Of a stretch of 43,635 nt of DNA, positions 5,957-35,063 are shown one piece after another (the first letter of the stretch is position 1; each line of letters starts with the position of its first letter). Source of the DNA: Amaricoccus solimangrovi (GTDB lineage Bacteria; Pseudomonadota; Alphaproteobacteria; Rhodobacterales; Rhodobacteraceae); assembly GCF_006385685.1 (NCBI RefSeq), contig NZ_VFRP01000030.1, forward strand, positions 1-43,635, read 5' to 3'. The position numbers were made by a program, and so were the translations under genes. The notes under the pieces were generated by a model. That model saw only the letters and a list, made by a program, of their open reading frames with translations. It was not told the DNA's origin and did no database searches.

Positions 5957-5958
5957 GG

Positions 5959-7200: not shown

Positions 7201-7257
7201 GATGCGCCTCCCCTCGGATGCTCGGCGCCTGTGCCTTGGGCGCTCTGTGTTGATCAA

Positions 7258-15472: not shown

Positions 15473-16489
<1,017 letters not shown>

Positions 16490-16553: not shown

Positions 16554-17752
<1,199 letters not shown>

Positions 17753-17756
<4 letters not shown>

Positions 17757-19156
17757 GACAGGTCGACCTCCGGGAAGATAGTGGTGAGTTCGAGAAGCTG
17801 GGCGCGGAAAGCCTCCGCGTCGTCGAGGCAGCGCAGATCCAGCACGACCGCGTCGCGTTCGATCCGCCCGATCACGGGGATCGGCAGCCGGCGCAGCGCG
17901 CTCGCCAGACGCTCGGCGCGGCCGCCTGGCGCGGGAGCACGGAGCGCGACGCTCTCGAAGGTTTCGAGCGGCAGCGCGCCCGAGCCGACCTGCGCCTCGG
18001 TGTCGACGACCGCGACCTCGGCGCCGAGCGCGGCGGCGAGGCTCGGCCGCAGGTCCTCGGCGAGGGCGCGGAGCTCCGCGACCGTCCGCGCGAAGGTCCG
18101 GATCGTCGGCAGTGTCTCGGCGAGCCGCTCGGTATGGCGGTAAAGGCGCAGGGTCGCTTCCAGCGCGGCGAGGCGCACCTTGTCGAGCCGCAGCGCGCGC
18201 TTGAGCGGGTGGGCGGCGCAGGCCCGGACCAGATCGCGGCGGCCGGCGATGAACCCCGCCTGCGGCCCACCGAGCAGCTTGTCGCCGGAGAAGGTGACGA
18301 GATCCGCGCCGTCGGCCAGCGCCTCCTGAACCGTGCGCTCGCGCGCGACGCCCCAGCGCGAGAGATCCACGAGCACGCCGGAGCCGAGGTCGTCGACGAG
18401 CGGGAGCCCCGCGTTCCGTGCGATCGCCGCGAGCTCGGCCCCCGCGACCTCGGTGGTGAAGCCCATGACGCGGTAGTTCGAGGTGTGGACCTTCAGGATC
18501 AGCGCCGTTTCCGGTCCGATCGCGGCCCGGTAATCGCGCGGATGGGTCCGGTTGGTGGTGCCGACCTCGCGCAGCCGCGTGCCCGCGCTCGCCATCACGT
18601 CCGGCATCCGGAACGAGCCGCCGATCTCGATCAGCTCGCCGCGCGAGACGATGGTCTCGCGTCCCTGGGCGAGCGCGGCGAGCACGAGCAGCACGGCGGA
18701 GGCGTTGTTGTTGACGACGCAGGCGTCCTCGGCCCCAGTGATCTCGGCGACCAGCCGCTGCGCCGGCTCGTCGCGCTGGCCGCGCCGGCCGGCATCGAGA
18801 TCGTATTCGAGCGACAGCGGGTGGCGCATGGCCGTGGTGGCCGCCTCGACCGCCGCCTCGGCGTAGAGCGCCCGCCCGAGATTGGTGTGGAGCACCGTGC
18901 CCGTCAGGTTGAAGACGCGGCGCGCCCCGGACCGCTCGGCCCCGGCGAGCGCCGCGCCCGCGGCCTCCGCGACGAAGAGGCCGGCATCGACGCGCGCCGG
19001 TCCGGGCTCGCCGCCCCGCAGCCGCAGGCGCAGCGCGTCGAGCTCGGTCCGGATCGCGCGGCGCGTCGCCGCCTGGCCGTGGCGCGCGATGAGCGACTGG
19101 CCCGTCGGCGTGCGCAGCGCCTCGTCGACGGAGGGAAGCGTGCGAAGGTCAGACAC
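17753..19156 (-). CDS. selA: L-seryl-tRNA(Sec) selenium transferase
   Basis: 467 residues, matching bacterial SelA. This PLP enzyme converts Ser-tRNA-Sec to Sec-tRNA-Sec using selenophosphate. Visible landmarks are the N-terminal LPSVDEAL and TGTVLHTNLGRALYAEAA, VVNNNASAVLLVL, and the PLP lysine Lys293 in SGDKLLGGPQAG. It overlaps both neighbours: its start lies inside the end of the lactonase gene (8 bases), and its stop overlaps the thiolase start. Bacterial selA usually precedes selB; here selB is 2.6 kb away on the same strand with two genes between. Placement between a lactonase and a thiolase ties Sec synthesis to the catabolic operon. Confidence 0.97.
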
Positions 19157-20339
19157 CGGAGGCTCCTCCCTTCCCGGTATTCGCCGCCACGGCGAAGGTC
19201 AGGCAGCCCGGCGCGGGATGCGGGTAGCTTCGGCCCTCGCCGCGCAGCAGGCCGTCCGCCCCGAGGGGGAACACGCGCACCTCCCGGCTGGTGACCGCGG
19301 CGACGAGGAAGTGACGGCCATCGGGCGAAATGGCCGCGCCCCTGGCGTTGCCGACGCCGAGCGGCTGGGTGGCGAGCGGGCGCAGGGTCCCGTCCTCGGC
19401 GACGGCGTGGATGGCCACGACCTCCGCGCCCCGGACGAGGGTGTAGAGGAAGCGCCCGTCGGGGTGGAGGATCAGGTCGGACTGCATCCCCTCCGCGTGC
19501 TCCGGGAGCCGCGTTTCCTGGACGAGATCCAGAGCGTCGTCGCCCACCCGGTAGAGGTGGAGGATCGGGGCGGTCTCGAAATTGACGTAGAGAAGCGGTC
19601 GCGCGGGATGGAACACGCAATAGCGCGGCGAACTGCCCGGTGGCGCGGGCAGGCTCGCCTTCCGCTCGAGCGCGCCGGCCGCGCGGTCGATGCCGAAAAG
19701 GTGGAGTCGGTCGGCCCCCTTGTCGCAGACCACGAACAGATCCCGGTCGGGAGCGCGCACGACCGAATGGAGCTGCGGGTGGGTCTGCGCCGGAAGCGCG
19801 CCATGCCCCTCGTGGCGGAACAGGTCAGAGGGAGGCTCGATGGCGCCGGCCCCGTCGAGCGGGAAAAGGACCGTCGCCGCTTCGTCATAGTCGAGCACGA
19901 CGCGGAAGCGGCCATCGTCGCCGCGCTCGGCGCGGGTCACCGGCGTATGGCCGGTGTGATTGGCGAGCAGAAGATAGTCGCCCTCCGCCGAAAGGGCGGT
20001 GTAGGCGGGCAGCGTGCCGAAGCTCGGCTGTCGCGACGCTTCGGAAATCCCGCCCGAGTCCATGTCCAGGTGGAAGGCGATGACCTGTCCCCCGCCTCCG
20101 AGATGGTGGCCGGGCAGCGTCAATGCCTCGTGGACGACGTAGAGCAGGTGGCGTTCGGCGTCCCAGGTGATCGCGCCGACGCTGACTTCCCCGGCCGCCG
20201 CGCCGATCGGCTCCAGCTCGCCGGTGTCCGGGTCGAAGCGGTGAATGTCGAGCCCGTGGCGGCCCGGAGAAGCCTTCTCCCAGGAAGAAGGACCCTTGCG
20301 CCGGTTGCCGACGCACAGCAATGGCTGTGAAATCCCCAT
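19149..20339 (-). CDS. Lactonase family beta-propeller protein (6-phosphogluconolactonase Pgl-like)
   Basis: 396 residues from ATG 20339, preceded by TAGGGA; a longer TTG-initiated form from 20396 would run through the operator and is unlikely. Repeated blade motifs typical of the seven-bladed lactonase fold are visible, such as YTALSAEGDYLLLANH, HSVVRAPDRDLFVVCDKGADRLHLF, LILHPDGRFLYTLVRG and AAISPDGRHFLVAAV. Family members hydrolyse sugar lactones or muconolactone-type esters, but many have no known role. No signal peptide. First gene of the lactonase-selA-thiolase operon, just behind the shared operator and divergent from the LysR gene. Confidence 0.85.
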   Translation of the reverse strand: MGISQPLLCVGNRRKGPSSWEKASPGRHGLDIHRFDPDTGELEPIGAAAGEVSVGAITWDAERHLLYVVHEALTLPGHHLGGGGQVIAFHLDMDSGGISEASRQPSFGTLPAYTALSAEGDYLLLANHTGHTPVTRAERGDDGRFRVVLDYDEAATVLFPLDGAGAIEPPSDLFRHEGHGALPAQTHPQLHSVVRAPDRDLFVVCDKGADRLHLFGIDRAAGALERKASLPAPPGSSPRYCVFHPARPLLYVNFETAPILHLYRVGDDALDLVQETRLPEHAEGMQSDLILHPDGRFLYTLVRGAEVVAIHAVAEDGTLRPLATQPLGVGNARGAAISPDGRHFLVAAVTSREVRVFPLGADGLLRGEGRSYPHPAPGCLTFAVAANTGKGGASGV

Positions 20340-20385
20340 GCGCGTCCCTACCCTGTCCGCTGACTTGCTGTCAGCGCTTGCAATT

Positions 20386-20397
20386 TTGTTAGACAAT
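20386..20397. promoter_or_regulatory. Second copy of the palindromic operator (lactonase-selA promoter region)
   Basis: TTGTTAGACAAT is the exact reverse complement of bases 7259-7270. It sits 47 bases upstream of the lactonase start and about 100 upstream of the divergent LysR start. A weaker copy, TTGTTCAACAT (20399-20409), follows directly. The core fits the FadR-type consensus TNGTNNNACNA. No convincing -10/-35 pair could be assigned by eye. Confidence 0.6.
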
Positions 20398-20494
20398 CTT
20401 GTTCAACATGTCGAGCGAAAAACCCACCCGGCGAGGAGGTCTTCGAATTGACAGCGTATTCCCTGTCCGTCAGATCTCCTCTCGGGGGAGGCCA

Positions 20495-21778
20495 ATGGAC
20501 AATCACGCACCCACCGGGCGTGGAGCTTCGTTGCTGGATCTGGGCGACCAGCTTCAGAACCTGCGAATGTTCCTCTTCGCCGCCGACGCGCAGAGCATCG
20601 CCGGCGCGGCCAAGCAGCTCTACAAGTCGCCCTCGGCGATCACCCGGTCGATCATGGAGCTCGAGAAGGTCGTCGGCGTCCAGCTGCTCGAGCGCAATTC
20701 GCGCGGCATCCTGCCGAACGCCTACGGCGACGTCGTGCTGGCGCGGAGCCGCCGGATCGAGGCGGAGCTCGGACAGGCGGCGGAGGACCTCGCCACGCCG
20801 AGGAGCCAGGGGACACCCCCCTCTCCCAGCGCGATCAGCCATTTCCTGTTCAACGGCCGCAAGCTCAGGCTGCTGATCCATCTCGCCGACAGCCGCAAGA
20901 TATCGACCGCGGCGGCCCGCCTCGACATCAGCCAGTCGGGCGCGAGCATGGCGCTGTCGCGGATCGAGGCGGCGGTCGGCGAGCCGCTCTTTCACCGCGG
21001 AATGCACGGGATGATCGCGACCGAGATGGCCGACGGCTTGGTGATGCGTGCGAAGCGGGTGTTCGCCGAACTCCGGCACATGCTCTCGGAAATATCGATG
21101 CTGTCGGGCAGCCTCGCGGGCAGCGTGGTGGCGGGGACGCTTCCGCTCGGGCGGACCTATGTGCTGCCGATGGCGATCGCCGCGACGCTGGAGCGCTACC
21201 CGGGCATCCGCGTGACGACGATCGAGAATCACTTTGAGCAACTCGTCACCGATCTCCGGAGCGGCGAGATCGACGCCGTTCTCGGCGTTCCGCGCGACGA
21301 GAGCCAGCGACAGGGTCTGAGCGTCGAGCCGCTCTTCCTCGAAGGGCTCCGGGTGATCGCCCGCGCGGGCCATCCGATCTTCGAGCGCGGCGCGATCACG
21401 CTCGCTGATCTCGGCGCGGAACGCTGGGTGCTCCCCTGGTCGAACTCGCTCAGTCATCGCCTGATCGAGGAGGCCTTCCGGCTCGAGGGGCTGGAGCCGC
21501 CGGTCGCCTCGGTCGAATCGGCCGACCTTCAGGTCATGCGCCAGCTCCTGCTTTCGAGCGACATGCTGGCGATCGCATCTCCCCGGCAGCTGAGCTACGA
21601 GCTGCGCTCGGGGCTCTTCCTCGAGGTGCCGGTCGCGTTGCGCGGGACGGAGCGGGAGGTCGCGCTGATGACGCGCGAGGGCGCCATGCTGTCGCCGGCC
21701 GCGCTCGCGGTGCTCGATGCGATCCGCGAGCAGGCGACGGCCGATCCCCGGCGGATGGAGTTGCTCGTGCCCGACTGA
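20495..21778 (+). CDS. LysR-type regulator with two tandem N-terminal HTH domains
   Basis: 427 residues from ATG 20495, preceded by GGGGGAGG. A first LysR-type winged helix spans about 18-95 (FLFAADAQSIAGAAKQLYKS, then ITRSIMELEKVVG, LLERNSRG). A second, different one spans about 115-190 (LIHLADSRKISTAAARLDIS, then MALSRIEAAVGEPLF). The effector-binding domain follows from about 210 (LPLGRTYVLP, then YPGIRVTTIE and DAVLGVP). Most LysR proteins (about 300 residues) have one HTH. It is divergent from the lactonase-selA operon, the usual place for a LysR regulator of that operon. The effector is unknown. Its stop lies five bases from the convergent selB stop. Confidence 0.88.
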   Translation: MDNHAPTGRGASLLDLGDQLQNLRMFLFAADAQSIAGAAKQLYKSPSAITRSIMELEKVVGVQLLERNSRGILPNAYGDVVLARSRRIEAELGQAAEDLATPRSQGTPPSPSAISHFLFNGRKLRLLIHLADSRKISTAAARLDISQSGASMALSRIEAAVGEPLFHRGMHGMIATEMADGLVMRAKRVFAELRHMLSEISMLSGSLAGSVVAGTLPLGRTYVLPMAIAATLERYPGIRVTTIENHFEQLVTDLRSGEIDAVLGVPRDESQRQGLSVEPLFLEGLRVIARAGHPIFERGAITLADLGAERWVLPWSNSLSHRLIEEAFRLEGLEPPVASVESADLQVMRQLLLSSDMLAIASPRQLSYELRSGLFLEVPVALRGTEREVALMTREGAMLSPAALAVLDAIREQATADPRRMELLVPD

Positions 21779-21783
21779 CGGCC

Positions 21784-23766
21784 TCATCGCCGTGACCGTC
21801 TCCGGGCCGGGGTTCTCGCCGCGAAGGCGAGATCGGACAGGCCGCGCTCGAGCTCGGCCGCGCGGCGCAGGATCACTCCGTGGTTTGCCTGGACGGCGCG
21901 GGCATCGCCGCGGCGGCGGGTCACTCCTACCCGGTCGAAGAACTCGAGCACCTCGATGACGAGGTTGCGGCCGATTCCCGCGGCGTCGCGCATGTCGGCG
22001 GCGGTGAAGCCGGCCTCGCCCTTCCGCTCGGTCAGGGACGCGGCGACGTCGGCGAGGCGGGCAACCTCGGCGCGGGGAAGCATACGCTCGGCGCCGACGC
22101 GCCAGATGTCGCCGGTCCCGCGCATGCGCGCGAAGAGGCCGCGGGTCTCGGTCTCGGGCAGGTCGATCTCCTTCGCGATCTCCGCCGTGGTGAACGGCTT
22201 GCCGCCGCGCGCGTCGGCGGCGGCCAGAACCTTGTGCCACAGCGCGACATCGGCGTTGCCGCGGGCCGGAATGTGTCCGGGCATGCGCGCGTAGGATCCG
22301 CCGGAGGCGATCTCGCGCCGGTCGACCATCTCGCGGCGAAGCGCCTGGCGGGCGGCCGGCGACAGCGGGGTGGCGAGATGGGCGTCGAGTTCGGCGATGG
22401 GCAGGCCGTTCGCCTCGGGGTGGTCGCGGTGATAGGTCTTGACCGCCGCGACGATCTCGGCGCGGGCGGCTTCGACGCGGGCGGCGTCGATCGCCCGGGT
22501 CTTGCCCATGATGACCGCGCCGGCCGCGCGAACGAGCGCTGCGACGGCATCGGCGCGGAGATTGAAGCGACGCTCGAACATCGGCACGTCGACCTCGTGC
22601 CCCGGGATCGCGAGCAGCGCGGCGAGCGCGGCGGCCGGATCGGCGTTTTCGAGCGCCGCCCATACCTGTTCGCGCTGAGCCACGTGACGACGTCCTCCGC
22701 TCACGACCGGGTCGACGACGACGCCCCCGCCGAGGGTGGTCCGGCCCGCCTGGTCGCGGATCACGAAGCGGTCGCCCGTCACGGCGAGCGTGGGTTCGCC
22801 GAGCACCAGCTGGACGAGGGCCGAGGATCCCGGTCCGATCGCCGCGCCGCCGGGGATCAGCACGCGCGCGGGGATCGCCGCCGTCCCGATATGGAGGTGA
22901 ACGGAGCCGTTGTGGCGCAGCGCCTCGCCGTCGGGAATGATGCGCAGGCGCGCGGCGAGGCGGCGGGTCGGCTGATCCATGCCCGGAACCACGAGCCAGT
23001 CGCCGCGATGGACATGGTCGAGATCGAGGCCGGCGAGGGCTATGGCGGCGCGCTGGCTGGGCTCGATCGCGGCGACGCTCGCCCCGGCGGACTGGAGCCC
23101 GCGGACGCGGACCTCGATCCCCTCGGGCGCGAGGATCAGCCGGGCACCGGGGGCGAGCGCGGCGTCCCGCGCCGTCCCGGTCACGACGGTGCCGGTTCCG
23201 GTGACCGAGAAGGCGCGGTCGATGGCGAGCCGGAAGGTCCTCCCCGTGTCGGGAGCCGGCGCCTCGGCGCGCGCCGCTTCGACGAGAAAGGCCGCGAGCG
23301 GCTCCACCCCCGCCCCGACGGTCGCCGCGACCTCGAAGACCGGCGCGCCGGCGAGCGCCGTCCGGGCGACCAGGGCCGTGACCTCGTCGCGAACGGCGGC
23401 GACCCGTCCCTCGTCCACGCGATCGGTCTTGGTGATCGCGACCGCGGCGCGCGGCGCGCCGAGCAGATCGAGGATCGCCAGATGCTCGCGCGTCTGCGGC
23501 ATGACGCCGTCGTCCGCGGCGACCACGAGAAGGGCCAGATCGACGCGGGTGACGCCCGCGAGCATGTTGCGCACGAATTTCTCGTGACCGGGCACGTCGA
23601 CGAAGCCGATGGTCAGCCCGGGTTCCGGCCGCCAGTAGGCGAAGCCGAGATCGATCGAGATGCCCCGGGACTTCTCCTCGGGCAGGCGGTCGGTCTCGAC
23701 GCCGGTCAGCGCGCGCACCAGCGTGGTCTTGCCGTGATCGATATGTCCGGCCGTCGCGACGAGCAT
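21784..23766 (-). CDS. selB: Selenocysteine-specific elongation factor
   Basis: 660 residues. The EF-Tu-like GTPase part has G1 GHIDHGKTT (7-15), G3 DVPGHEKF (57-64) and G4 ITKTD, with RGISIDLGFAYW in the switch region as in SelB. Domains II-III follow (FSVTGTGTVVTGT). A winged-helix C-terminal region of about 290 residues, including FTAADMRDAAGIGRNLVIEVLEFFDRVG near the end, binds the SECIS hairpin. The frame is open far upstream, but ATG 23766, right behind GGGAGGGGGAAGG, is the start. SelB delivers Sec-tRNA to UGA codons followed by a SECIS. Convergent with LysR, divergent from the CapA-like gene. Confidence 0.97.
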   Translation of the reverse strand: MLVATAGHIDHGKTTLVRALTGVETDRLPEEKSRGISIDLGFAYWRPEPGLTIGFVDVPGHEKFVRNMLAGVTRVDLALLVVAADDGVMPQTREHLAILDLLGAPRAAVAITKTDRVDEGRVAAVRDEVTALVARTALAGAPVFEVAATVGAGVEPLAAFLVEAARAEAPAPDTGRTFRLAIDRAFSVTGTGTVVTGTARDAALAPGARLILAPEGIEVRVRGLQSAGASVAAIEPSQRAAIALAGLDLDHVHRGDWLVVPGMDQPTRRLAARLRIIPDGEALRHNGSVHLHIGTAAIPARVLIPGGAAIGPGSSALVQLVLGEPTLAVTGDRFVIRDQAGRTTLGGGVVVDPVVSGGRRHVAQREQVWAALENADPAAALAALLAIPGHEVDVPMFERRFNLRADAVAALVRAAGAVIMGKTRAIDAARVEAARAEIVAAVKTYHRDHPEANGLPIAELDAHLATPLSPAARQALRREMVDRREIASGGSYARMPGHIPARGNADVALWHKVLAAADARGGKPFTTAEIAKEIDLPETETRGLFARMRGTGDIWRVGAERMLPRAEVARLADVAASLTERKGEAGFTAADMRDAAGIGRNLVIEVLEFFDRVGVTRRRGDARAVQANHGVILRRAAELERGLSDLAFAARTPARRRSRR

Positions 23767-23808: not shown

Positions 23809-23937
23809 TGAGGGGGAGGGATCGGCGGCGGCGTGATCGGGGCTCGATTCTGGTGATGCACGCTGTCGCGGGGCTAGCGGGACGGCGTAGTGACAGGGGC
23901 GAGCACGCGATGGCACAGAGGCGCGAAGGAGGCTCCA

Positions 23938-25302
23938 TTGACCCGCGACATGTCGGTCGAGATCGCGACGAAGATCACCGCGCCCTTCACCGTGGCCGCG
24001 GTCGGGGATCTCATCATGCCGGAGCCGCTCCGGCGCTCCGACCCGCGTTTCGAGGCGCTGGTGGGTCACCTCCGCGCCGCCGACGTGGGGTTCGCGAACA
24101 TGGAATCGAGCCTCATCGACCTTCCCCGCTTCGCCGGAGGCGCGGTGGCGGGCACGGCGGCCCCGCTCGCGATGGGCGAGTCGATCAGGGCCATGGGCGT
24201 GACGATGATGAGCCGCGCCAACAACCACACCTTCGACTGCGGCCTCGCGGGGATGATCTCGACCGACGCCGCGCTCGACGCGCTCGGGATCACCCACGCG
24301 GGGACCGGCGCGAACCTGCAGGAAGCGCGCGCCGCGCGGTTCCGCGAAACCCCCAAGGGGCGGGTGGGCCTGGTCAGCTTCTACTCGATCGCCGACACCG
24401 GGCATTTCGGCCCGACCTATGCGAGGACGGAGGCGACGGCGCGCACCGGGAGCATCGGAGGGATGCCGGGCGTGAACCCGCTGCGTGTCACCGGCTACAA
24501 CGTGGTCTCGCCCGATCATCTCGAGCGGATGAAACGCCTCGCGCACGAGATCTATGGCGAACGGCCCGGCGCGAGCGAGCCGGCGGCGGACGGACGGCCC
24601 GAGCGGCTGCGCTTCTTCGACCAGTGGTACCAGGCGGGCGAGGACGTGGGCGCGATCCAGTTCGACATCGACCCCGCCGACCGCGGCGCCATTCTCGCGA
24701 GCGTGCGGAACGGAAAGATCTATTCCGATTTCCTGATCGCCACGATCCACGCCCACCAGACCGGCCGGTTCGATCCGACGCTCGCCTTCGGCAAGGTCAA
24801 GGGGATGAAGGAGGCGATCGACCATCATCCGGCGAATTTCCTCGCCGAGATCGCCAGGGCCAGCATCGACGCGGGCGCGGACATGTTCGTGAGCCATGGC
24901 GTGCACGCGCTGGCGGGGATGGAGATCTACAAGGGCCGGCCGATCTTCTACGGCCTTTCCAACTTCGTCTTCCAGTTCGGGCTCCAGTATGGCGCGAGCT
25001 CCGACGTGATGGAGAACTGGAAGACGAAGAACGAGCTCGAGAACCCCGCAAGCCACGTCGCGATCCTCGTCACCTGCCATTTCGACGGCGGAGAGTTGAC
25101 GGAGGTGCGCGTCCACCCCGCCGACCTCGGCGGGGCGAAGCGGCCGATCTCGCAAATGGGCATCCCGCTCGTGCCCGAGCCCGAGGACGCGGCCCGGATC
25201 CTCGCCGACTTCGCCGCGTATTCCGCCCCGTTCGGCACGCACGTCGAGATCGAGAGCGGCGTCGGAGTCGTTCGCCTCGGCGCCGTGACTCGGGTGCGCT
25301 GA
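23938..25302 (+). CDS. CapA family metallophosphoesterase-like protein
   Basis: 454 residues from TTG 23938, chosen because AAGGAGG lies five bases ahead; ATG 23950 is an alternative. Calcineurin-like motifs of the PGA_cap family appear in order: AVGDLIMPEP, ANMESSLID, MMSRANNHTFDCG, ATIHAHQTG and FVSHGVHALAGMEIYKGRPIFYGLSNFVF. Family members include poly-gamma-glutamate capsule proteins, but many are stand-alone phosphoesterases; there is no signal peptide or membrane anchor here, unlike capsule CapA. It lies between selB and selD, the latter on the same strand 113 bases on. A role with the selenium genes is not established. Confidence 0.85.
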   Translation: MTRDMSVEIATKITAPFTVAAVGDLIMPEPLRRSDPRFEALVGHLRAADVGFANMESSLIDLPRFAGGAVAGTAAPLAMGESIRAMGVTMMSRANNHTFDCGLAGMISTDAALDALGITHAGTGANLQEARAARFRETPKGRVGLVSFYSIADTGHFGPTYARTEATARTGSIGGMPGVNPLRVTGYNVVSPDHLERMKRLAHEIYGERPGASEPAADGRPERLRFFDQWYQAGEDVGAIQFDIDPADRGAILASVRNGKIYSDFLIATIHAHQTGRFDPTLAFGKVKGMKEAIDHHPANFLAEIARASIDAGADMFVSHGVHALAGMEIYKGRPIFYGLSNFVFQFGLQYGASSDVMENWKTKNELENPASHVAILVTCHFDGGELTEVRVHPADLGGAKRPISQMGIPLVPEPEDAARILADFAAYSAPFGTHVEIESGVGVVRLGAVTRVR

Positions 25303-25346: not shown

Positions 25347-25387
25347 GTTCGAACGGCCTGTCCGACGCGCTATGTTCACGGGAACAT
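25347..25387. promoter_or_regulatory. Palindromes in front of selD
   Basis: Two inverted repeats built on the same GTTC/GAAC half-site stand upstream of selD: GTTCGAAC at 25347-25354 and ATGTTCACGGGAACAT at 25372-25387, the latter a perfect 6-bp repeat with a 4-base centre, 28 bases before the selD start. Position suggests an operator for the selD-selenoprotein operon. They do not resemble the 7258 and 20386 sites. Confidence 0.4.
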
Positions 25388-25415
25388 GGGTCCGAGGGGA
25401 TCCGGGGAGGAAGGG

Positions 25416-26489
25416 ATGATCGCGACCGATACGCTGGCGAAGCCGGAGGAGCCGCGGCTGACGTCGCTGTCCCATGGCGGCGGCTGCGGCTGCAAGATCG
25501 CGCCGAGCGTGCTGTCGCGCATCCTGCGCGGGGAGGCGGCGATGCCGGTGCCCGAGCAGCTGCTCGTCGGGATCGAGACCTCCGACGACGCGGCGGTCTG
25601 GAAGCTCAACGATACCCAGGCGCTGGTGGCGACGACTGACTTCTTCATGCCGATCGTGGACGATCCGGCCGATTTCGGGCGGATCGCCGCCACCAACGCG
25701 CTCTCCGACGTCTATGCCATGGGCGGAACGCCGATCATGGCGCTCGCCATCGTCGGCATGCCGATCAACGTGCTGTCGCACGAGACCATCGGCGCCATCC
25801 TCGGCGGTGGCGCGGCGGCCTGCCGCGACGCCGGAATCCCCGTGGCCGGCGGGCACACGATCGACTCGGTCGAGGCGATCTACGGCCTGGTCGCGCTCGG
25901 GCTCGTCCATCCCGACCGGGTCCGCGCGAACGCGGCGGCCCGGCCCGGCGACGTTCTGATCCTCGGCAAGCCGCTCGGCGTCGGGGTGATGTCGGCGGCC
26001 CTGAAGAAGGGCGCGCTCGACGCCGATGGCTACGCGCAGATGATCGCGACGACCACGAGGCTCAACACGCCCGGGCCGGAGCTCGCAGGCATCGAGGGCG
26101 TGCATGCGATGACCGACGTGACGGGCTTCGCGCTCGCCGGCCACGCACTCGAGATGGCGCGAGGCTCGGGATGCGACATCCGGCTCGACTGGGAGGCCAC
26201 GCCCCTGCTCGCCGGGGTCCGCGATCTCGCGCGCCGCGGCTTCGTGACCGGCGCTTCCGCCCGCAACTGGGCGAGCTACGGCGACGAGGTGGTGCTGCCC
26301 GCGGGGTTCCCGGCGGAGGACCGGGCGCTCCTGAGCGACCCGCAGACCAGCGGCGGCCTGCTCGTCACCTGCGATCCCGCCTCCGCGGAGGCGGTGCTCG
26401 CAACCTTCCGCCGCCACGGCTTCGCCGAGGCGGCGGTGATCGGCGGGGTGGACGCGTCCGACGCGCCGCGCCTTCGCGTGAATGCATGA
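25416..26489 (+). CDS. selD: Selenide, water dikinase (selenophosphate synthetase)
   Basis: 357 residues from ATG 25416 with GGGGAGGAAGG ahead; a start at 25386 would lie in the upstream palindrome. SelD makes selenophosphate from selenide and ATP. The active-site loop is SHGGGCGCKI, with Cys24 at the position of catalytic Cys17 in E. coli (Sec in some homologues) and Lys27. The AIR synthase-like domains show TTDFFMPIVDDPADFGRIAATNALSDVYAMGG and DVTGFALAGHALEMA. It is followed 16 bases after its stop by the selenoprotein gene, so the selenium donor and its client are co-expressed. Confidence 0.97.
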   Translation: MIATDTLAKPEEPRLTSLSHGGGCGCKIAPSVLSRILRGEAAMPVPEQLLVGIETSDDAAVWKLNDTQALVATTDFFMPIVDDPADFGRIAATNALSDVYAMGGTPIMALAIVGMPINVLSHETIGAILGGGAAACRDAGIPVAGGHTIDSVEAIYGLVALGLVHPDRVRANAAARPGDVLILGKPLGVGVMSAALKKGALDADGYAQMIATTTRLNTPGPELAGIEGVHAMTDVTGFALAGHALEMARGSGCDIRLDWEATPLLAGVRDLARRGFVTGASARNWASYGDEVVLPAGFPAEDRALLSDPQTSGGLLVTCDPASAEAVLATFRRHGFAEAAVIGGVDASDAPRLRVNA

Positions 26490-26505: not shown

Positions 26506-28233
26506 GTGACGGACGAGAGCACTTACAAGGTCGTGTGGCCATCCAGCCCGCGCCAGCACACAGGCCACAAGCTCGCGAAACGCCTCGATGATCTCGACGG
26601 CAAGGTGGTCGCCGAGCTCTGGGACTGGGTGTTCAAGGGCGACATCATGTTCGACGTCTGGGAGCGCGAGCTCAAGGCGCGCTACCCCAACATCACCTTC
26701 GTCTCCTGGCGCGAGTTCGGCGAGATCCACGGCGCCAACGAGCACAAGGTGCTCGAGGAACTGCCGCAGAAGCTCAAGGATTTCGGCGTCGACGCCGTGA
26801 TCTGCGGGGTAGGCTGTTGAGGCTCCTGCACGGCCGCCGTGACGCGTGCCAGCGTACTTGTTGAAAAACTGGGCTATCCGACCGTCACCATGCTTTGCTC
26901 CGGGTTCGTGAACCAGGGCAAGATGACGGCGAAGGGATTGGGGATGCCCAATCTCCCGCACACGATCCACCAGGGTCATGTGAACATGGTTCCCGACGAC
27001 CAGCTCGAGAAGACCGTCGCCGGTCCGATGCTGGAGCAGGTCATCCAGGGCCTGACCGTTCAGCCGCCGGAAGCGCGGATGGCAGGCGAGCCGGGAATGC
27101 GCGACATCATCTTCGAAGGCACCTTCGAGGAGGTCAACGAGCACTTCCTGGAGAAGGACTGGAGCGAGGGCCTGCCGGTCGTTCCGCCGACGCTCGAGAG
27201 GGTCGAGGAATTCCTGCGCTTCACCGACAAGAAGCCCGAGGAGGTGCTGGGCAAGGCCCTGCCGGACTCGCGCGACGCGACGGTCTGGAGCGTCGCGGTG
27301 AACGGCGTCATGTCGGGCTGCCGGCCCGAGTACATGCCGGTGCTCGTCGCCATCGTCGAGGCGATGATGGATCCGGTGTTCGGCCACGAACACCTCGGCC
27401 ACACGCCCGCGACCGAGACGCAGATCATCGTCAACGGGAAGATCCTGAAGGAATTGGGGTTCAACTTTGGACAGGCCGCGCTCCGGCCGGGCTTCCAGGC
27501 GAACACCAGCGTCGGCCGGTTCTGGCGCATGTACATGCGCAACGTCTGCGGCTTCATCCCGCACGGCACGGACAAGGGCTGCTTCGGCGGCAACTTCCGC
27601 ATCGTGCTCGCGGAGAGCGAGGACCTGACCCACGAGATGGGCTGGCCCACGCACGCGCAGGAGGAGGGCTACGAATACGGCGAGAACGTCGTGACCATTA
27701 CCGCCTGCACCGAGATGACCCAGGCCATCGAGGTGGGCGATCCGAACGCGGAGCAGATCCTGAAGAACATCGAGGCCCGTATGGCCGACAACAACATGTT
27801 CATTCAGTTCTTCTTCCGGGGGATGGTGACGCGGCCGCTCGTCGTGATCACGCCGGCGATCCTCAAGGTCCTGACTGACCAGGGATGGACCAAGGAGCGG
27901 GTGCGCAAGCACTTCTACGAGAATGCCAAGCTCCGCGTCTCACGGCTGTCCGGCATGATCCTGAACCGCTTCTACCGGGGCATCAACGAGAAGTGCTGGC
28001 CCGAACAGCTCGGCACCTCGATGGACGTGGAACGCGACATCCAGATGGTCTCGAAGCCCGAGGATTTCCTGATCGTCGTCGCCGGCGATCCGGACCGCGA
28101 CCACACGATGATCGGTTCGGGCAACGGCTACATCGGCTTTCCCGTCACCAGGAAGATCGCGCTGCCGGAGAAGTGGGGCGAACTGCTGGCGGAAACCCGG
28201 AACAAGAAGAAACAGGGAGCGATACAGACATGA
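26506..28233 (+). CDS. UGSC-type selenoprotein; in-frame TGA at 26818-26820 read as Sec105
   Basis: 575 residues if TGA 26818-26820 is Sec. GTG 26506 has AGAGGAG eight bases ahead, and both sides of the TGA are in one frame. The N-terminal domain leads to ICGVGC-U-GSC-TAAV: Cys100, Cys104, Sec105 and Cys108, so Sec is in a U-x-x-C redox motif and next to a Cys. From about 222 (GLPVVPPTLERVEEFL) a second domain follows with NGVMSGCRPEYMPVLVAIVEAM, GHTPATETQIIVNGKI and HGTDKGCFGGNF; I know no function for it. I recall a (seleno)protein family named for UGSC. Read conventionally the gene would be two broken ORFs of 104 and about 464 codons. It follows selD by 16 bases and overlaps the next gene (ATGA). 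Likely a redox enzyme; substrate unknown. Confidence 0.92.
26818..26852 (+). promoter_or_regulatory. Sec UGA codon and candidate bacterial SECIS hairpin
   Basis: Just after the TGA, GCACG (26828-26832) can pair with CGTGC (26845-26849) around a 12-base loop starting with G; CT and AG extend the stem across a bulged C. A competing fold pairs CACGG (26829-26833) with CCGTG (26837-26841). Bacterial SECIS elements lie directly 3' of the UGA within coding sequence and need a G at the start of the apical loop. The loop starts about 12 bases after UGA, slightly nearer than usual. Confidence 0.55.
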
Positions 28234-29294
28234 AGCGACCAATCACGGCCCTCGGGGGCCTTCCGAGCGACAGGGCGGCTGGGTTCGGCCGTCGCGACCT
28301 GATGCGGGCCGCCGGACTGGCCGCCCTCCTCGGCGCCTCCGGCGGCCTGGGCCTCGGCCTTCCGGCCGCCGCGCAGGACGAGGCGCTCATCGCGGCGGCC
28401 CAGGAAGAGGGTCACGTGATGCTCTACACGGCGTCCGAGGAGTCGATCATCGCCGCGCTGAGCGCGGCGATGAGCGACAAGTACGGCATCACGCTGGAAT
28501 ATCAGCGGTTGAACTCCCGCGACGTCGCCGGCCGCTATTCGGCCGAGGCGGAAGCCGGCAAGACGGTGGCGGACGTCATCCTGACGGGCGATCCGATCCT
28601 GATCGACGATTTCTCGGCCAAGGGCTGGATCGCGCCGATCGATGCCAGCCAGATCCCGGGGTTCGACGCCTGGCCCGCCGAGTTCAAGAACGACCATTCG
28701 GTGATCGTGTCGATCAATCCGCAGACGGTCGCGATCAACACCGACAATCTGAAAGCACCGATCACCAGCTGGCAGGATCTGCTGCGTCCCGATCTGAAGG
28801 GCCAGATCGTCACAGTGGATCTCAAGCGCGTCGGCCTGGTGGCCTTCGCAGCCTACGATCTGATGCTCAAGACCTATGGCGAGGAATTCCTCACCAAGCT
28901 CGGGCAGCAGGACCCGAGGCTCTTCGACAGCGGCCCGTCGGCGATCCAGCAGCTCGCGTCGGGCGCCGCGGCGGCGTACTTCCCGGCGTCCACCACCCAG
29001 TCCCAGTCGATGATCGACATGGGCGCGCCGGTCCAGGCGATCATCCCGGAGGGCGAACCCTACACCGGCGTGATGTCGCCCGTGGCGATCTCGGCCAACG
29101 CGCCGAGCCCGAACGCCGCCCGGCTCTTCGTCAGCTTCGTCATGAGCGAGGAGGGGCAGAAGATCCTGAACGAGCACACCGCCTCGCCGAACAACACCCC
29201 CGGCACCGGTGAGCTGAAGCCGGGCTTCGTACCGCCGGACATGGAATCCTCGGCGGCCAACAAGGACAAGATCATCCAGCTGATGGGGCTCTGA
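28230..29294 (+). CDS. Tat-type periplasmic solute-binding protein of an ABC importer (ferric/AfuA-like family)
   Basis: 354 residues. The ATG overlaps the selenoprotein stop (ATGA). The leader FGRRDLMRAAGLAALLGA (residues 19-36) is a twin-arginine signal ending near AAAQ-DE. The mature part is a family 1 binding protein: EEGHVMLYTASEE, SGKTVADV-like segment AEAGKTVADVILTGDP, SWQDLLRPDLKGQIV and GEPYTGVMSPVAIS. This family carries ferric ion, thiamine, phosphonates and other anions. I do not see a clear ferric Tyr-Tyr pair, so an organic anion is as likely as iron. It should deliver its ligand to the permease encoded next; the missing ATPase may be the one at 2.3-3.5 kb. Confidence 0.88.
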   Translation: MKRPITALGGLPSDRAAGFGRRDLMRAAGLAALLGASGGLGLGLPAAAQDEALIAAAQEEGHVMLYTASEESIIAALSAAMSDKYGITLEYQRLNSRDVAGRYSAEAEAGKTVADVILTGDPILIDDFSAKGWIAPIDASQIPGFDAWPAEFKNDHSVIVSINPQTVAINTDNLKAPITSWQDLLRPDLKGQIVTVDLKRVGLVAFAAYDLMLKTYGEEFLTKLGQQDPRLFDSGPSAIQQLASGAAAAYFPASTTQSQSMIDMGAPVQAIIPEGEPYTGVMSPVAISANAPSPNAARLFVSFVMSEEGQKILNEHTASPNNTPGTGELKPGFVPPDMESSAANKDKIIQLMGL

Positions 29295-29396: not shown

Positions 29397-31136
29397 ATGC
29401 CGAACATGCAAGTCGCCAGCGGTCCGGCGCGAATGGCCCGCCCCGGCTGGTTTTCCAACCCGATCGGGCTGCTGGCCACCGCGCTCCTGATCGGCGTCGG
29501 CTTCCTCGTCCTCTATCCGGTGTTCCTGCTCATCGAGCGGGTCATCGCCAATCCCGGCGAGGATGGCCTCGGGATCGACGCCTCCATCTGGGGCACGCTT
29601 CTCAACACGTTCCTGATCGTGGGAGGGAGCAGCATTCTCGCGCTCGCCTTCGGCTCGCTGCTCGCGATCATCAACGAGCGGACCGATGGCAGCATCCGGG
29701 GCCTCGGCACCTTCATGCCCGTGGCGCCGCTGATGCTTCCCTCCATCACCGGCGTGCTCGGCTGGGTCGTGCTCTTCGATCCGCGCGTCGGCATGGTGAA
29801 CGTGATCCTGCGCGACGTCTTCGGCTTCGCCGCCGGATCGGGCGAAGGGCCCATCAACGTCTACTCCTGGGGCGGCATGCTGCTTGCCTACACCGTCCAT
29901 CTCGTGCCGGCGATCTATCTCATCATCGCCGCCGCGCTCCGAAGCCTCGATCCCTCGGTCGAGGAAGCGTCTCGGATCTTCGGGGCGGGTCCGATCCGCA
30001 CCTGGTGGCGCGTGACCCTGCCCGCGATCCGGCCGGCGCTGTTCGAGGCGTGGCTGCTGTCGGTCATCAACGCGATCGCAATGTTCGCCGTGCCCGTCAT
30101 CCTCGGCACCGGCGCCGGCGTCGAGGTGATCTCGGTCAGCATCTGGACCTATCTCACGCAGTATCCGCCCAACCAGCAGGCGGCGATCGTCCTCGCGGGT
30201 GGCATGCTCGCGGTCGTCCTGCTGCTGCGCGGCATCCAGTGGCGTTTGGTGCCGAGCGGACGGCAGGCGGTGATCGGCGGTCGTGGCGTGCGCGGCACGA
30301 TGGCGAGCCTCGGCGCGCTCCGCCACGTCGCCCGGGCCATCGTGATCGGCTACATCCTGATCTCGCTGGTCCTGCCTCTGATCGGTCTCTTCATCGTTTC
30401 GCTGGAGCCGTTCTGGACCGCCAATGTCCCTTGGGAGCGCCTCTCCTTCTCCAACTACACGCGGATCCTGACCCAGAACCCGACCACCATCCGGGCGCTC
30501 GTCAACTCGCTGATCCTCGCCGCCATGGGCGCGACGATCTTCATGGCGGTCGCGGCCTTTCTCCGGCTTTACGCCCGGCAATCCACCGGACAGACCGGCA
30601 AGGGGCTGTTCAGCCGCAGCTTCGACGGCATCGTGGACTTCGTGACCTCGATGCCGGCGACCCTGCCGCACAGCATGGTGGGCGTCGCCTTCATCCTCGC
30701 CTTCAGCCGCTGGCCGCTGGACCTCTATGGCACCATCTGGATCCTTCTGCTCGCCCACGCGGTGATGGAGCTGCCCTACGCCTCGGCCTCGGCCAAGTCG
30801 GCCGCGAGCTTCATCGGCCGGGAACTCGCGGAATCCTCTCGGATCTTCCGCGCCTCCGAGGGAACGACGATGTGGAGGATCCTGGTTCCGCTGGCGCTGC
30901 CCGGCCTCGCGGCCGGATGGGTGCTCGTCTTCATCAAGATCCTCGGCGAGGTGACAGCCTCGGCGATCCTGGCGGGCACATCCAATCCCGTCGTCGGCAG
31001 CGTGCTGCTTGACCTCTGGCTCCAGGGCAACTTCCCGATGATGACCGCCTTCGCGCTGATCATCTGGGTGATCACCTCCGTGCTGGTCATTCTGGTCCTG
31101 TGGCTCAACAACCGCAATCTGGCACGCGCGCGCTGA
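29397..31136 (+). CDS. Fused ABC importer permease (two MetI-like domains, FbpB type)
   Basis: 579 residues holding two copies of the six-helix binding-protein-dependent permease domain. Copy one spans about 20-285 with the EAA loop EEASRIFGAGPIRTWWRVTLPAIRP; copy two spans about 300-579 with ESSRIFRASEGTTMWRILVPLALPG. Fusion into one chain is usual in the ferric/AfuB-like class, so a single gene forms the whole channel. Upstream GAAGG is modest. Gene order SBP-permease without an ATPase leaves the transporter incomplete locally; the orphan ATPase at 2.3-3.5 kb is the only candidate in the window. Confidence 0.93.
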   Translation: MPNMQVASGPARMARPGWFSNPIGLLATALLIGVGFLVLYPVFLLIERVIANPGEDGLGIDASIWGTLLNTFLIVGGSSILALAFGSLLAIINERTDGSIRGLGTFMPVAPLMLPSITGVLGWVVLFDPRVGMVNVILRDVFGFAAGSGEGPINVYSWGGMLLAYTVHLVPAIYLIIAAALRSLDPSVEEASRIFGAGPIRTWWRVTLPAIRPALFEAWLLSVINAIAMFAVPVILGTGAGVEVISVSIWTYLTQYPPNQQAAIVLAGGMLAVVLLLRGIQWRLVPSGRQAVIGGRGVRGTMASLGALRHVARAIVIGYILISLVLPLIGLFIVSLEPFWTANVPWERLSFSNYTRILTQNPTTIRALVNSLILAAMGATIFMAVAAFLRLYARQSTGQTGKGLFSRSFDGIVDFVTSMPATLPHSMVGVAFILAFSRWPLDLYGTIWILLLAHAVMELPYASASAKSAASFIGRELAESSRIFRASEGTTMWRILVPLALPGLAAGWVLVFIKILGEVTASAILAGTSNPVVGSVLLDLWLQGNFPMMTAFALIIWVITSVLVILVLWLNNRNLARAR

Positions 31137-31214: not shown

Positions 31215-31880
31215 ATGGCAATGGGCGATACCGATCTCAGCGCTGAGATCAAGCAGTACAACCGCGAGCGCGCCGAGACGGTCGTGAAGAACCTGCGCGA
31301 GAAGTACATGGACGGCTACTTCGTCGAGACCCGCGAGGACGCGCTCAAGCTGGTTCTAGACCTGATCCCGGAAGGCGCCCAGCTCGGCCGGGGCGACTCC
31401 GTCACGCTGAACCAGATCGGCGTGTTCGAGGCGCTGACCGAACGGGGCACGAACGAGTTCATCAACCCGGTCCGGACCGACGTGCAGGGCTACAACCCCC
31501 CGCGCGAGGAGCGCCGCAAGATGCAGCGGATGACGCTGCTCTCGGACATCTATCTCACCGGCACCAACGCGATCACCATGGGCGGCACGATCGTCTCGAC
31601 CGATGGCTCGGGCAACCGGGTCGGTGCGATGATGTTCGGCCCGAAGAAGGTCATCATCGTCTGCGGCTGCAACAAGATCTGCGCCGACGTCGACGACGCG
31701 CTGCGCCGCATCCGCGACTGGGCCGGCCCGGTCAACGCCTGGCGGCACCGGCTGAAGCACCGCAAGGACGACGGCCTCGGCTGGGGCGTGCTGCGCTACA
31801 CCGCGATCATCGACGGCAACCAGCCGGTCGAGCAGGGCAAGATCTGCGTGATCCTCGTCAACGAGGACCTGGGTCTGTGA
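31215..31880 (+). CDS. LUD-domain protein (LutC/YkgG-like, stand-alone)
   Basis: 221 residues, one LUD domain. Landmarks are RGDSVTLNQIGVFEALTERG, AITMGGTIVSTDGSGNRVGAMMFGPKKVIIV and the C-terminal NKICADVDDALRRIRDWAGPVNAWRH. The domain occurs in lactate-utilisation proteins LutB/LutC and in many single-domain proteins of unknown reaction. Here IVCGCNKIC carries three closely spaced cysteines where I expect fewer, possibly a metal or redox site. No LutA or LutB is nearby, so classical lactate oxidation is unlikely. ATG 31215 follows AGGAG. Part of the selD-selenoprotein-transporter operon. Confidence 0.88.
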   Translation: MAMGDTDLSAEIKQYNRERAETVVKNLREKYMDGYFVETREDALKLVLDLIPEGAQLGRGDSVTLNQIGVFEALTERGTNEFINPVRTDVQGYNPPREERRKMQRMTLLSDIYLTGTNAITMGGTIVSTDGSGNRVGAMMFGPKKVIIVCGCNKICADVDDALRRIRDWAGPVNAWRHRLKHRKDDGLGWGVLRYTAIIDGNQPVEQGKICVILVNEDLGL

Positions 31881-31923: not shown

Positions 31924-32772
31924 ATGACCCCGAGAAGCTGGCTGATCGTGCCCGCCGACAACGAGGAGAAGATCGCCGCCGCGCTCGGCTCCGCCGCCGA
32001 CGCCGTGATCTTTGATCTGGAGGACAGCGTCGCGGCGAGCGAGAAGGCGCGCGCGCGCGACATCCTGCGGGGCCTCGGCGCCCGGACCGCCGGGGGCCCA
32101 TCGCGCTGGGTGCGGATCAATCCGCTCGAGAGCGAGTTCTCGGGTCCGGACATCGGTTGCTGCGAGGAGCTTGAACTCGACGGTCTCGTGCTGCCGAAGG
32201 CCGAGGAAGGCGAGCAGGTCCGTCGTCTGGCCATGGACGTGATGGAGGCCAGCTGGCGGCTGCACGCGATGGTCGGCGCGACGCCCGCGAGCCTCTTCGG
32301 CATGGACTCCTTCATCGGCGCCGCCGCCTCGCTCACCACGATGAGCTGCGGCATCGACGACCTCTCGACCGCGCTCGGCGCCTCGTCGAAGTTCGACGCC
32401 GACGGAAGCCTCAGCTTCACCTATCGTCTCGCCCGGTCGCTCTGCCTCACCGCGGCGCGAGCGGCGGGGGCGCAGCCGGTCGACGGCGTGTTCCGCGACG
32501 TCACCGATGTCGAGCGCCTGCGGCGTGAGGCCGAGGCCGCGCGGCGCGAGGGCTTCACCGGCAAGCTCGCGATCGATCCGTCCCAGGTCGAGGTCATCAA
32601 CGAGGCCTTCACGCCGACCGCCGAGGAGGTCGCGGCGGCGCGGGCGATCGTCGCCGCCTTCGAGGCCGAGCCGCGGCGGGGATCTCTGGCGGTCGGGGCG
32701 CGGCTCATCGACCGTCCGCGGCTCGCGCAGGCCCGCGGAGTTCTGCAGCGCGCGGGCGCCGCGAAGGAGTGA
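31924..32772 (+). CDS. HpcH/HpaI aldolase / citrate lyase beta-like protein (CitE, citramalyl-CoA lyase type)
   Basis: 282 residues. The family signature is plain: RSWLIVPADNEEKIAAAL, AVIFDLEDSVAASEKARAR, WVRINPLESEF, LDGLVLPKAE, then GKLAIDPSQVEVINEAFTPT. These metal-dependent lyases cleave or form C-C bonds next to a CoA thioester, as in (S)-citramalyl-CoA, malyl-CoA or citryl-CoA. Start follows GGGAGG. Last gene before a hairpin. Together with the MaoC hydratase and CaiB CoA-transferases far upstream it would make a CoA-transferase, hydratase, lyase set like that of itaconate or mesaconate breakdown; the distance makes this tentative. Confidence 0.9.
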   Translation: MTPRSWLIVPADNEEKIAAALGSAADAVIFDLEDSVAASEKARARDILRGLGARTAGGPSRWVRINPLESEFSGPDIGCCEELELDGLVLPKAEEGEQVRRLAMDVMEASWRLHAMVGATPASLFGMDSFIGAAASLTTMSCGIDDLSTALGASSKFDADGSLSFTYRLARSLCLTAARAAGAQPVDGVFRDVTDVERLRREAEAARREGFTGKLAIDPSQVEVINEAFTPTAEEVAAARAIVAAFEAEPRRGSLAVGARLIDRPRLAQARGVLQRAGAAKE

Positions 32773-32963: not shown

Positions 32964-33662
32964 ATGGAGCAGTTGAAGGTGGATTCGTCGAAGTCGGCGA
33001 AGCCTCTCGCCCAGGCTGCCGTCACCGACCGCATCCGCCAGGCCATCCTCGAGAATGACCTCGCGCCCGGACAGCGCCTCATCGAGGCGGAACTCTGCGA
33101 TCTCCTCAAGGTCAGCCGCGGCACGATCAGGATCGCGCTTATGGATCTCGCACACGAGGGTCTCGTCGAGCGCGTCGCAAACCGGGGCGCGCGCGTGCGG
33201 GTGGTAACTCTCGAGGAGGCGCTCCAGCTGGCCGATGTGAGGCTGGCCGTGGAGAGCCTCTGCGTCGCCCTCGCGGCCGAGCGGATCACGGACGCCGAGG
33301 CGGCGACGCTCCGCGCGCTCGGCGAGGACCTCAAGAGGTTCGAGGCGGAAAACGACGTCGCGGGCTTCGCGAGCACGACGCACCGGATCTTCCTGACCTA
33401 CGTCGCCGCCTCCGGGCAGGTCGTCGCACGGGAAGTTCTCGAGCGGCTGCGCGACCGCAACGCCCGCCACCGCTTTCGCCTGTCGTTCCGCCCGGGCCGC
33501 GCGAAGGTCTCGCTGCCGCAGTGGCTCGAGATCATCGACGCGATCTGCCGCCGCGACCCCGAGGCCGCGCAGGCGGCGCTACGGCGTCACGTCGACAGCG
33601 TCAAGGAAGCGATGATCGCCGTCTCGAGGGACGCGCTCGTGCTTACGAAACACGTGTCCTGA
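32964..33662 (+). CDS. GntR-family regulator, FadR subfamily (FCD effector domain)
   Basis: 232 residues. The winged HTH occupies about 20-80 (RIRQAILENDLAPGQRLIEAELCDLLKVSRGTIR, then GLVERVANRGARV). The all-helical FCD domain runs about 85-225. Of the usual metal ligands, Asp91, His140 (THRIF) and His209 (RRHV) are kept, but the His normally in an S-x-x-EH segment is replaced (SLPQW, Trp187), so effector or metal binding may be altered. FadR-type regulators bind TNGTNNNACNA and answer to organic acids or acyl-CoAs. Two such sites lie in front of catabolic operons in this window, which makes this the best candidate regulator. It is the first gene after the selD operon hairpin. Confidence 0.92.
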   Translation: MEQLKVDSSKSAKPLAQAAVTDRIRQAILENDLAPGQRLIEAELCDLLKVSRGTIRIALMDLAHEGLVERVANRGARVRVVTLEEALQLADVRLAVESLCVALAAERITDAEAATLRALGEDLKRFEAENDVAGFASTTHRIFLTYVAASGQVVAREVLERLRDRNARHRFRLSFRPGRAKVSLPQWLEIIDAICRRDPEAAQAALRRHVDSVKEAMIAVSRDALVLTKHVS

Positions 33663-33859
33663 TTCTGGCACGGGCGCGGCCCTTCGGGAAGGAAGCGTTT
33701 CGGGCAAGGTGCGCGGCTCGATCTTTCCGTATGGCAGATCATCAACTCGACGCGAGGAGCGGGGGCAACCGCGGCGTGAAGCGACGGAACCCGCCCGCTC
33801 GCGCGTCAAACGATCCATCATTTCGAAGCGTTCGAGCAGTTCATGAAGAGACAATCCGC

Positions 33860-35059: not shown

Positions 35060-35063
35060 CCGC

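Follow-up and report, generated by a model that had tools for sequence, protein, structure and literature searches.

In the reductases for glycine, sarcosine, betaine and D-proline, the selenoprotein that binds the substrate is GrdB, GrdF, GrdH or PrdB; these systems include a second, substrate-side protein, the pyruvoyl subunit GrdE or PrdA, together with selenoether and Se-S chemistry and reductive C-N cleavage. GrdB and PrdB are selenoproteins that act where glycine reductase and proline reductase cleave their substrates. Another selenoprotein group, the UGSC family, was described in 2008, reportedly by Zhang and Gladyshev. The sections available of that description (PMC2398784) count UGSC proteins as one of the major selenoprotein families in metagenomes from the ocean and other aquatic settings, report a fusion of UGSC to a protein called 'Unknown_1' and give no function; a thioredoxin-like fold is suggested there and in the available text of PMC13188914.

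The window analyzed here is the entire 43,635-nucleotide stretch of Amaricoccus solimangrovi DNA, and its features are collected in Table 1. By its profile match, one of its genes is a further member of the published UGSC family, and such membership is in itself ordinary. As in that family, Sec stands in a U-G-S-C motif, PF24696 is matched and the protein is a fusion, as reported there for 'Unknown_1'. It differs in being a 575-residue fusion that scores below the cut-off of the NCBIfam equivalog model NF041046 (UGSC_fam; 50.4 bits against 125), and its C-terminal domain may or may not be the same as 'Unknown_1'.

Table 1. Positions of the features assigned in the window, ordered by coordinate
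Feature	Position	Strand	Basis
ABC ATPase with TOBE domain	2301..3497	-	profile scan
CoA-transferase family III	3558..4763	-	78% to P. aminovorans island
Second CoA-transferase-like gene, approximate limits	4775..5958	-	393-residue match, 85% to P. aminovorans L302:6799-8028
FAS1-like dehydratase-region protein	5959..7257	-	90% to P. aminovorans island
tRNA-Sec, TCA anticodon	9791..9884	-	anticodon
Thioredoxin-reductase-like flavoprotein (CADC), UGSC-linked clade	10065..10958	+	tree, profile score
FadJ/FadB-type hydratase/dehydrogenase	12613..14658	-	profile scan
Housekeeping-type TrxB	15473..16435	-	profile scan, tree
Thiolase, PcaF type	16554..17756	-	80% to P. aminovorans island
selA	17753..19156	-	TIGR00474 560.3 bits at C61:17810-19147
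Lactonase, 7-bladed propeller	19149..20396	-	profile scan
LysR-type regulator with N-terminal extension	20399..21778	+	profile scan
selB	21784..23766	-	46% to SelB of the P. aminovorans island, 42% to the other SelB of the genome
PGA_cap-family protein	23890..25302	+	67% to P. aminovorans island
selD, no in-frame TGA	25386..26489	+	TIGR00476 420.9 bits, cut-off 125
UGSC selenoprotein fused to C-terminal partner domain	26506..28233	+	GTG start; 575 aa
UGSC domain (PF24696), apparent remote homologue of GrdB/PrdB Sec domain	26530..27057	+	profile comparison
In-frame TGA, read as Sec105 of U-G-S-C motif	26818..26820	+	column conservation in best matches
SECIS-like hairpin with bulged U and apical loop of 6 bases	26832..26850	+	register shared with hairpin conserved in Sec homologues
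C-terminal partner domain, approximately residues 200-575	27103..28230	+	no Pfam family
ABC solute-binding protein	28230..29294	+	profile scan, P. aminovorans comparison
ABC permease, single protein with two BPD_transp_1 stretches	29397..31136	+	profile scan
LUD-domain protein	31215..31880	+	80% to P. aminovorans island
CitE/RipC-like C-C lyase	31924..32772	+	below equivalog cut-offs
GntR/FCD regulator	32964..33662	+	profile scan

The preliminary description of this DNA, made from its letters, joined two open reading frames across a TGA into one selenoprotein gene. Translation bears this out, as the frame 26506-28233 holds a single internal TGA at codon 105 (26818-26820) and a terminal TGA at 28231-28233, with Cys100, Cys104, Sec105 and Cys108 where they had been placed. 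The expected product near 64 kDa agrees with the 64.5 kDa computed for the 575-residue read-through protein with Cys in place of Sec. The GTG start is preceded by AGGAG about 8 bases upstream, selD ends at 26489, leaving the 16 bases described between the two genes, and the next gene starts with an ATG at 28230 that overlaps the stop as ATGA, as had also been observed. The (seleno)protein family said there to carry the motif does exist, with PF24696 matching residues 9-184 across the TGA at 119.6 bits (gathering cut-off 25) and the two halves on either side scoring 38.7 and 59.2 bits alone. In addition, contig C63 of the same genome encodes a UGSC copy that is 69% identical, has TGC at the Sec site and contains no stop.

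A species-genome collection was scanned with two patterns, one of which spelled Cys at the Sec position. This yielded at least 566 relatives, and the best 80 of 566 were kept, representing 79 distinct loci that are not independent, several coming from one assembly (JACPQD01); L048 and L100 (both 140,662 long) were treated as duplicates, as were L045 and L103 (12,324). The homologue comparison that had been proposed for residue 105 gave Sec in 77/79 and Cys in 2/79 when the best match per locus was taken (best 80 of at least 566 relatives), and Cys108 was present in all 79. Position 104 was Cys in 44/79 and position 100 in 1/79 of these same best matches (best 80 of at least 566), and because these two positions are partly or rarely Cys, the family motif is U-G-S-C and not the C-U-G-S-C originally given; the residues of the longer motif are present in the window protein, with Sec105 and Cys108 conserved in the family and Cys100 and Cys104 not. 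Across the 103 copies covering the Sec site in the 79 loci (best 80 of at least 566), the column reads Sec in 95, Cys in 5, and Gly, Ser and Thr in one each. The closest relatives with species names among the matches listed are from Paracoccus aminovorans, at 86% identity and with Sec, and from Novosphingobium flavum, at 67% and with Cys. Both genera are aerobes, unlike the GrdB/PrdB comparison systems.

A profile search of the class found UGSC matches in 38/385 genomes. For the 98 places listed from this search, a count by eye found one TGA in 92 and none in 6, and one of the latter six (G349:C311) matches model positions 2-77 only. The alignment used for modeling (A2) has 73 rows, consisting of 72 of 93 candidate segments plus the window; its rows were chosen for long matches, so it does not test for relatives ending before residue 105.

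Several records in the collection stand apart. UGSC-type paralogues with Ser, Thr or Gly in place of Sec, in which Cys108 is also lost, occur at L133:8251-9864, L133:18357-19970 and L084:5241-6884, and their products probably lack the redox pair. Three UGSC-type copies are carried by L084, a MAG whose title reads uncultured Lachnospiraceae; one of them is about 60% identical to that of the window, reflecting either recent transfer or contamination. Eight MAG records with the UGSC family are titled Bordetella parapertussis (L089, L092, L094, L102, L108, L118, L123 and L140), and these titles look mislabelled.

A TGA is formally a stop codon, and the hairpin downstream of it is weaker in the window than in the family, as detailed below, so that a true stop, arising from a frameshift, a pseudogene or an assembly error and leaving two fragments, had to be weighed. 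We consider this extremely improbable, as TGA is found at this site in 77 of the 79 best matches (best 80 of at least 566 relatives), in records titled as several phyla, with Cys in the other 2; the P. aminovorans homologue is 86% identical on either side of the TGA; and Sec machinery is encoded in the window itself. Chance read-through is rejected on the basis of conservation, namely the PF24696 match across the TGA, the TGA retained in P. aminovorans and the Sec/Cys column. The original reading of the TGA as Sec is upheld by this same evidence, and the gene seemingly split by a stop is most likely one selenium-containing enzyme.

The RNA downstream of the TGA points to a SECIS-like hairpin that is conserved in the Sec relatives and weaker in the window. 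Counting the T of the TGA as 0, the window hairpin spans +14 to +32, with the loop CGUGAC and a folding energy of -7.7 kcal/mol when folded alone. In 85 Sec copies, including the window, the five-pair stem +15..+19/+26..+30 has standard pairs in 390 of 425 cells, compared with at most 248 of 425 for slid registers of the stem, and all five pairs are kept in 69/85 Sec copies versus 0/8 non-Sec copies. The window is among the 16 Sec copies lacking the complete stem: of the five pairs seen in the family, it has lost two. Measured against synonymous recodings, the 45 bases starting at the TGA reach a mean z of -1.34 in the same 85 copies, whereas this measure gives -0.52 for a mid-gene control (93 copies) and -0.35 for the 8 non-Sec copies; part of the pairing signal also comes from codon constraints where the protein motif is conserved. 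Longer stretches of window RNA after the TGA were no more stable than shuffles (z +1.16; +0.32, +0.89, +0.44), and we count this ordinary stability against the explanation proposed below.

SelA, SelB, SelD and tRNA-Sec are all encoded in the window. A second tRNA-Sec and SelA, along with relatives of SelB and SelD, lie next to a formate dehydrogenase gene that contains a TGA, on contig C59 (L300, C59:9000-28900). The genome thus has two sets that have diverged from each other, each with a tRNA-Sec gene. Comparison of the two sets gave identities of 62% for SelA, 42% for SelB and 59% for SelD, with 74 of 93 aligned columns for tRNA-Sec.

By profile comparison, the UGSC domain looks like a remote homologue of the GrdB/PrdB selenoproteins, with Sec aligned on Sec. 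The kinship was first seen at 91.8% (E 7.5e-7). With hhalign, the UGSC profile matched 23 GrdB sequences, taken from the class to which the Lachnospiraceae MAG belongs, at 95.1% (E 3e-8) and 26 environmental PrdB-like sequences at 94.9% (E 4.7e-8), and both alignments place Sec on Sec and Cys on Cys, the UGSC Cys falling on the Cys of UGTC in GrdB. Among the controls, reversed columns gave E values of 0.064 and 0.39, and the best of 60 column shuffles reached 0.022. The UGSC profile also scored on GrdE/PrdA (32.7%, E 4.6e-4), so part of the GrdB/PrdB signal may reflect a shared fold. A third profile set, 'prdbF' (96.1%, E 3e-9), was not counted, as it is not independent: of its 24 records, 23 are frames already used in the GrdB set. 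The window protein differs from GrdB/GrdF/GrdH and PrdB (PF07355), to which its Sec domain appears homologous, in lacking a PF07355 match, in lacking the third Cys of the GrdB UxxCxxC motif (UGSC is followed by TAA) and in having a partner apparently unrelated to GrdE/PrdA. The PF07355 profile found no match in this genome and none among the hits of the window protein at E <= 1, and it is not among the 25 of 29 families listed for the 73 members of A2. The missing PF07355 match, the missing third Cys and the score on GrdE/PrdA all weigh against the explanation proposed below. Elsewhere, PF07355 is matched by 17/190 genomes of the class, and L161-L186 (alphaproteobacterial-class genomes plus Vineibacter) contain PrdB-like proteins with U-P-x-C or C-P-x-C at several loci, which make up another selenoprotein group.

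An AlphaFold2 model built with 73 sequences had a pLDDT of 92.8 and a pTM of 0.93. In the predicted UGSC domain strands and helices alternate, Sec105 lies directly after strand 97-103 and ahead of helix 106-121, and the beta hairpin of the thioredoxin fold is absent. Foldseek returned no match in the PDB at E <= 0.001, and a sequence search of the PDB gave nothing convincing. The 50 structure matches listed, out of 1381 in total, are weak and include no thioredoxin; flavodoxin-like proteins account for several of those to which Foldseek gives a high probability. The published thioredoxin-like fold is not supported by the model. A thioredoxin-like oxidoreductase, in which UxxC would act as a redox switch on disulfides of proteins or small molecules or on peroxides, as suggested in print, would suit the UxxC motif and the thioredoxin-reductase-like neighbor described below, but we judge it unlikely given this fold prediction and these structure matches, the profile match to GrdB/PrdB and the catabolic gene setting. 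The alpha/beta fold and weak PDB matches to hydantoin racemase would also accommodate a racemase or isomerase of the Asp/Glu racemase type that uses Sec as an acid/base; this is decidedly improbable, as hhalign against 15 Asp/Glu racemases gave an E of 0.041, no better than the best shuffle, and the linked reductase would be hard to account for. The kinship to GrdB/PrdB, together with the absence of a predicted thioredoxin fold, would be new, no statement of that kinship having been found in the literature searched, including the available parts of PMC2398784, PMC13188914 and PMC9312934.

The remainder of the protein, from about residue 200 to 575, matches no Pfam family above its cut-off. A profile of this C-domain found a copy in frame with the UGSC gene, or no more than 1.5 kb away from it, in 29/30 loci (same frame in 3, separate in 26, none in 1); these loci are drawn from the 98 places of the class search, a selection that favors strong UGSC matches. 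In three annotated records of haloarchaeal plasmids, one match covers both a hypothetical protein and, as a distinct entry, a UGSC family (seleno)protein, and several full-length relatives have an extra C-domain copy directly downstream. In 101 C-domain sequences (73 rows of the fused alignment and 28 separate proteins), P274, R338 and E370 are present in all 101 and C272 in 98. The C-domain, without a Pfam family, is a near-constant companion of UGSC in the loci examined, an association that would be new. An origin of the C-domain from GrdE/PrdA was considered and is unsupported (hhalign E 0.18), and comparison with GrdB likewise showed no relation (hhalign E 0.049); this unrelatedness to GrdE/PrdA and GrdB is counted against the proposed explanation. 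Modeling the C-domain alone without an alignment gave an unusable model (pLDDT 33.5).

A second recurrent neighbor is a thioredoxin-reductase-like flavoprotein with a CxxC motif, found within 5 kb in 20 of the 79 loci (best 80 of at least 566 relatives; 626 kb examined). No reductase was found within 5 kb in the other 59 (best 80 of at least 566), and 39 of the 79 loci fall short of 5 kb on at least one side; among those with 5 kb on both sides, 17/40 have the neighbor (best 80 of at least 566). Five genomes totaling about 24.5 Mb contain 18 reductase homologues in all by profile search, some of them UGSC-linked. Reductase density near UGSC is roughly forty-fold higher, an estimate that sets clustered BLAST near UGSC against the profile search in the five genomes. 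An early count of a thioredoxin reductase cluster in 33 loci was discarded, having included the window TrxB fragment and duplicate contigs.

In a midpoint-rooted FastTree tree, from which L048 (duplicate), L060 and L158 (length) and the window TrxB fragment were dropped, 25 of 29 neighboring reductases form one clade with the window protein encoded at 10065-10958, with housekeeping TrxB outside. Of the four outside the clade, L084 and L133 fall on the TrxB side, and a branch apart from both holds L145 and L071. The linked flavoprotein shares the fold family and CxxC of TrxB (TIGR01292), but it scores 204 bits against that model's cut-off of 343 and its clade is apart from housekeeping TrxB. 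A distinct thioredoxin-reductase-like flavoprotein linked to UGSC genes is, on this tree and these scores, a further apparent novelty. Glycine reductase is coupled to thioredoxin, which is comparable with the reductase linked to UGSC. The reductase of the window itself lies about 15.5 kb from the UGSC gene, and this distance is also counted against the proposed explanation, as are the 59 loci with no reductase found within 5 kb and the four neighbors outside the clade.

The surrounding genes have an extensive counterpart in P. aminovorans, where a Sec gene, a Cys copy, selD, selB, selA and tRNA-Sec are found within 40 kb. The same 40 kb also contains two UGSC-clade reductases, TrxB, an ABC importer, a LUD gene, two GntR regulators, two CoA-transferase-like genes, a FAS1-type dehydratase, FadJ, thiolase, lactonase, LysR and PGA_cap. 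Eight non-UGSC genes are 66-90% identical between the two (thiolase, TrxB, SelA, LUD, both CoA-transferase-like genes, the FAS1-type gene and PGA_cap), and no counterparts of the CitE-like, RND efflux and alpha/beta-hydrolase genes turned up in the island of P. aminovorans at E <= 1e-15. Window positions 33521-39559, beside the island, hold genes resembling an RND efflux operon, the last of which is an outer membrane efflux protein by profile scan. Among 10 other genomes of the genus searched, none has the UGSC gene and 4 have a SelA above the cut-off; the gene is therefore sporadic in the genus, consistent with possible transfer. By gene content, the window is a catabolic island that brings along selA, selB, selD and tRNA-Sec of its own, largely shared with P. 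aminovorans, which would also be new, and the neighboring enzymes fit an imported acid that may be degraded as a CoA ester. The sel genes of the island could instead indicate handling of metals, metalloids or selenium itself, which would account for the nearby selD. We hold this to be very improbable, since catabolic genes abound in the island (importer, CoA-transferases, dehydratase, FadJ, thiolase and lactonase) and a selA-like neighbor was found in only 11 other clustered loci.

Taken with the GrdB/PrdB kinship, these genes suggest a reductive cleavage in which the flavoprotein feeds electrons to Sec105 and Cys108, which would cleave an imported acid held by the C-domain; we regard this scheme as evenly balanced between right and wrong. 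The ABC importer would take up a small acid, and the C-domain would bind and activate it, standing in for the pyruvoyl subunit GrdE/PrdA. Sec105 would attack a carbon and expel the leaving group, Cys108 would form an Se-S bond, freeing the reduced product, and the linked thioredoxin-reductase-like flavoprotein with NAD(P)H would reset the Se-S bond. The CoA-transferases, dehydratase, FadJ-type enzyme and thiolase might then process the product further. The reaction, the substrate and the electron route are what we infer in this scheme, and the gene, the hairpin, the homology, the two-part association, the reductase clade and the island are drawn from sequence.

More broadly, and tentatively, with a probability that we place somewhat below even, UGSC may be the Sec half of a widespread reductive-cleavage system of the GrdB type that serves aerobic catabolism, with a second domain replacing the pyruvoyl subunit, a dedicated flavoprotein, paralogues for different substrates and, in this lineage, a pathway traveling with its own Sec machinery. 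With the kinship to GrdB/PrdB, the partner domain and the reductase, what was an 'unknown redox protein' becomes the subject of an assay with three proteins. The island, which has selA, selB, selD and tRNA-Sec in addition to a second set elsewhere in the genome, is also a clear case in which to study how the Sec trait may spread together with a gene that uses it. If this broader proposal is true, the UGSC proteins, which are reported to be some of the commonest selenoproteins of natural waters, would be the Sec half of an aerobic GrdB-type system.
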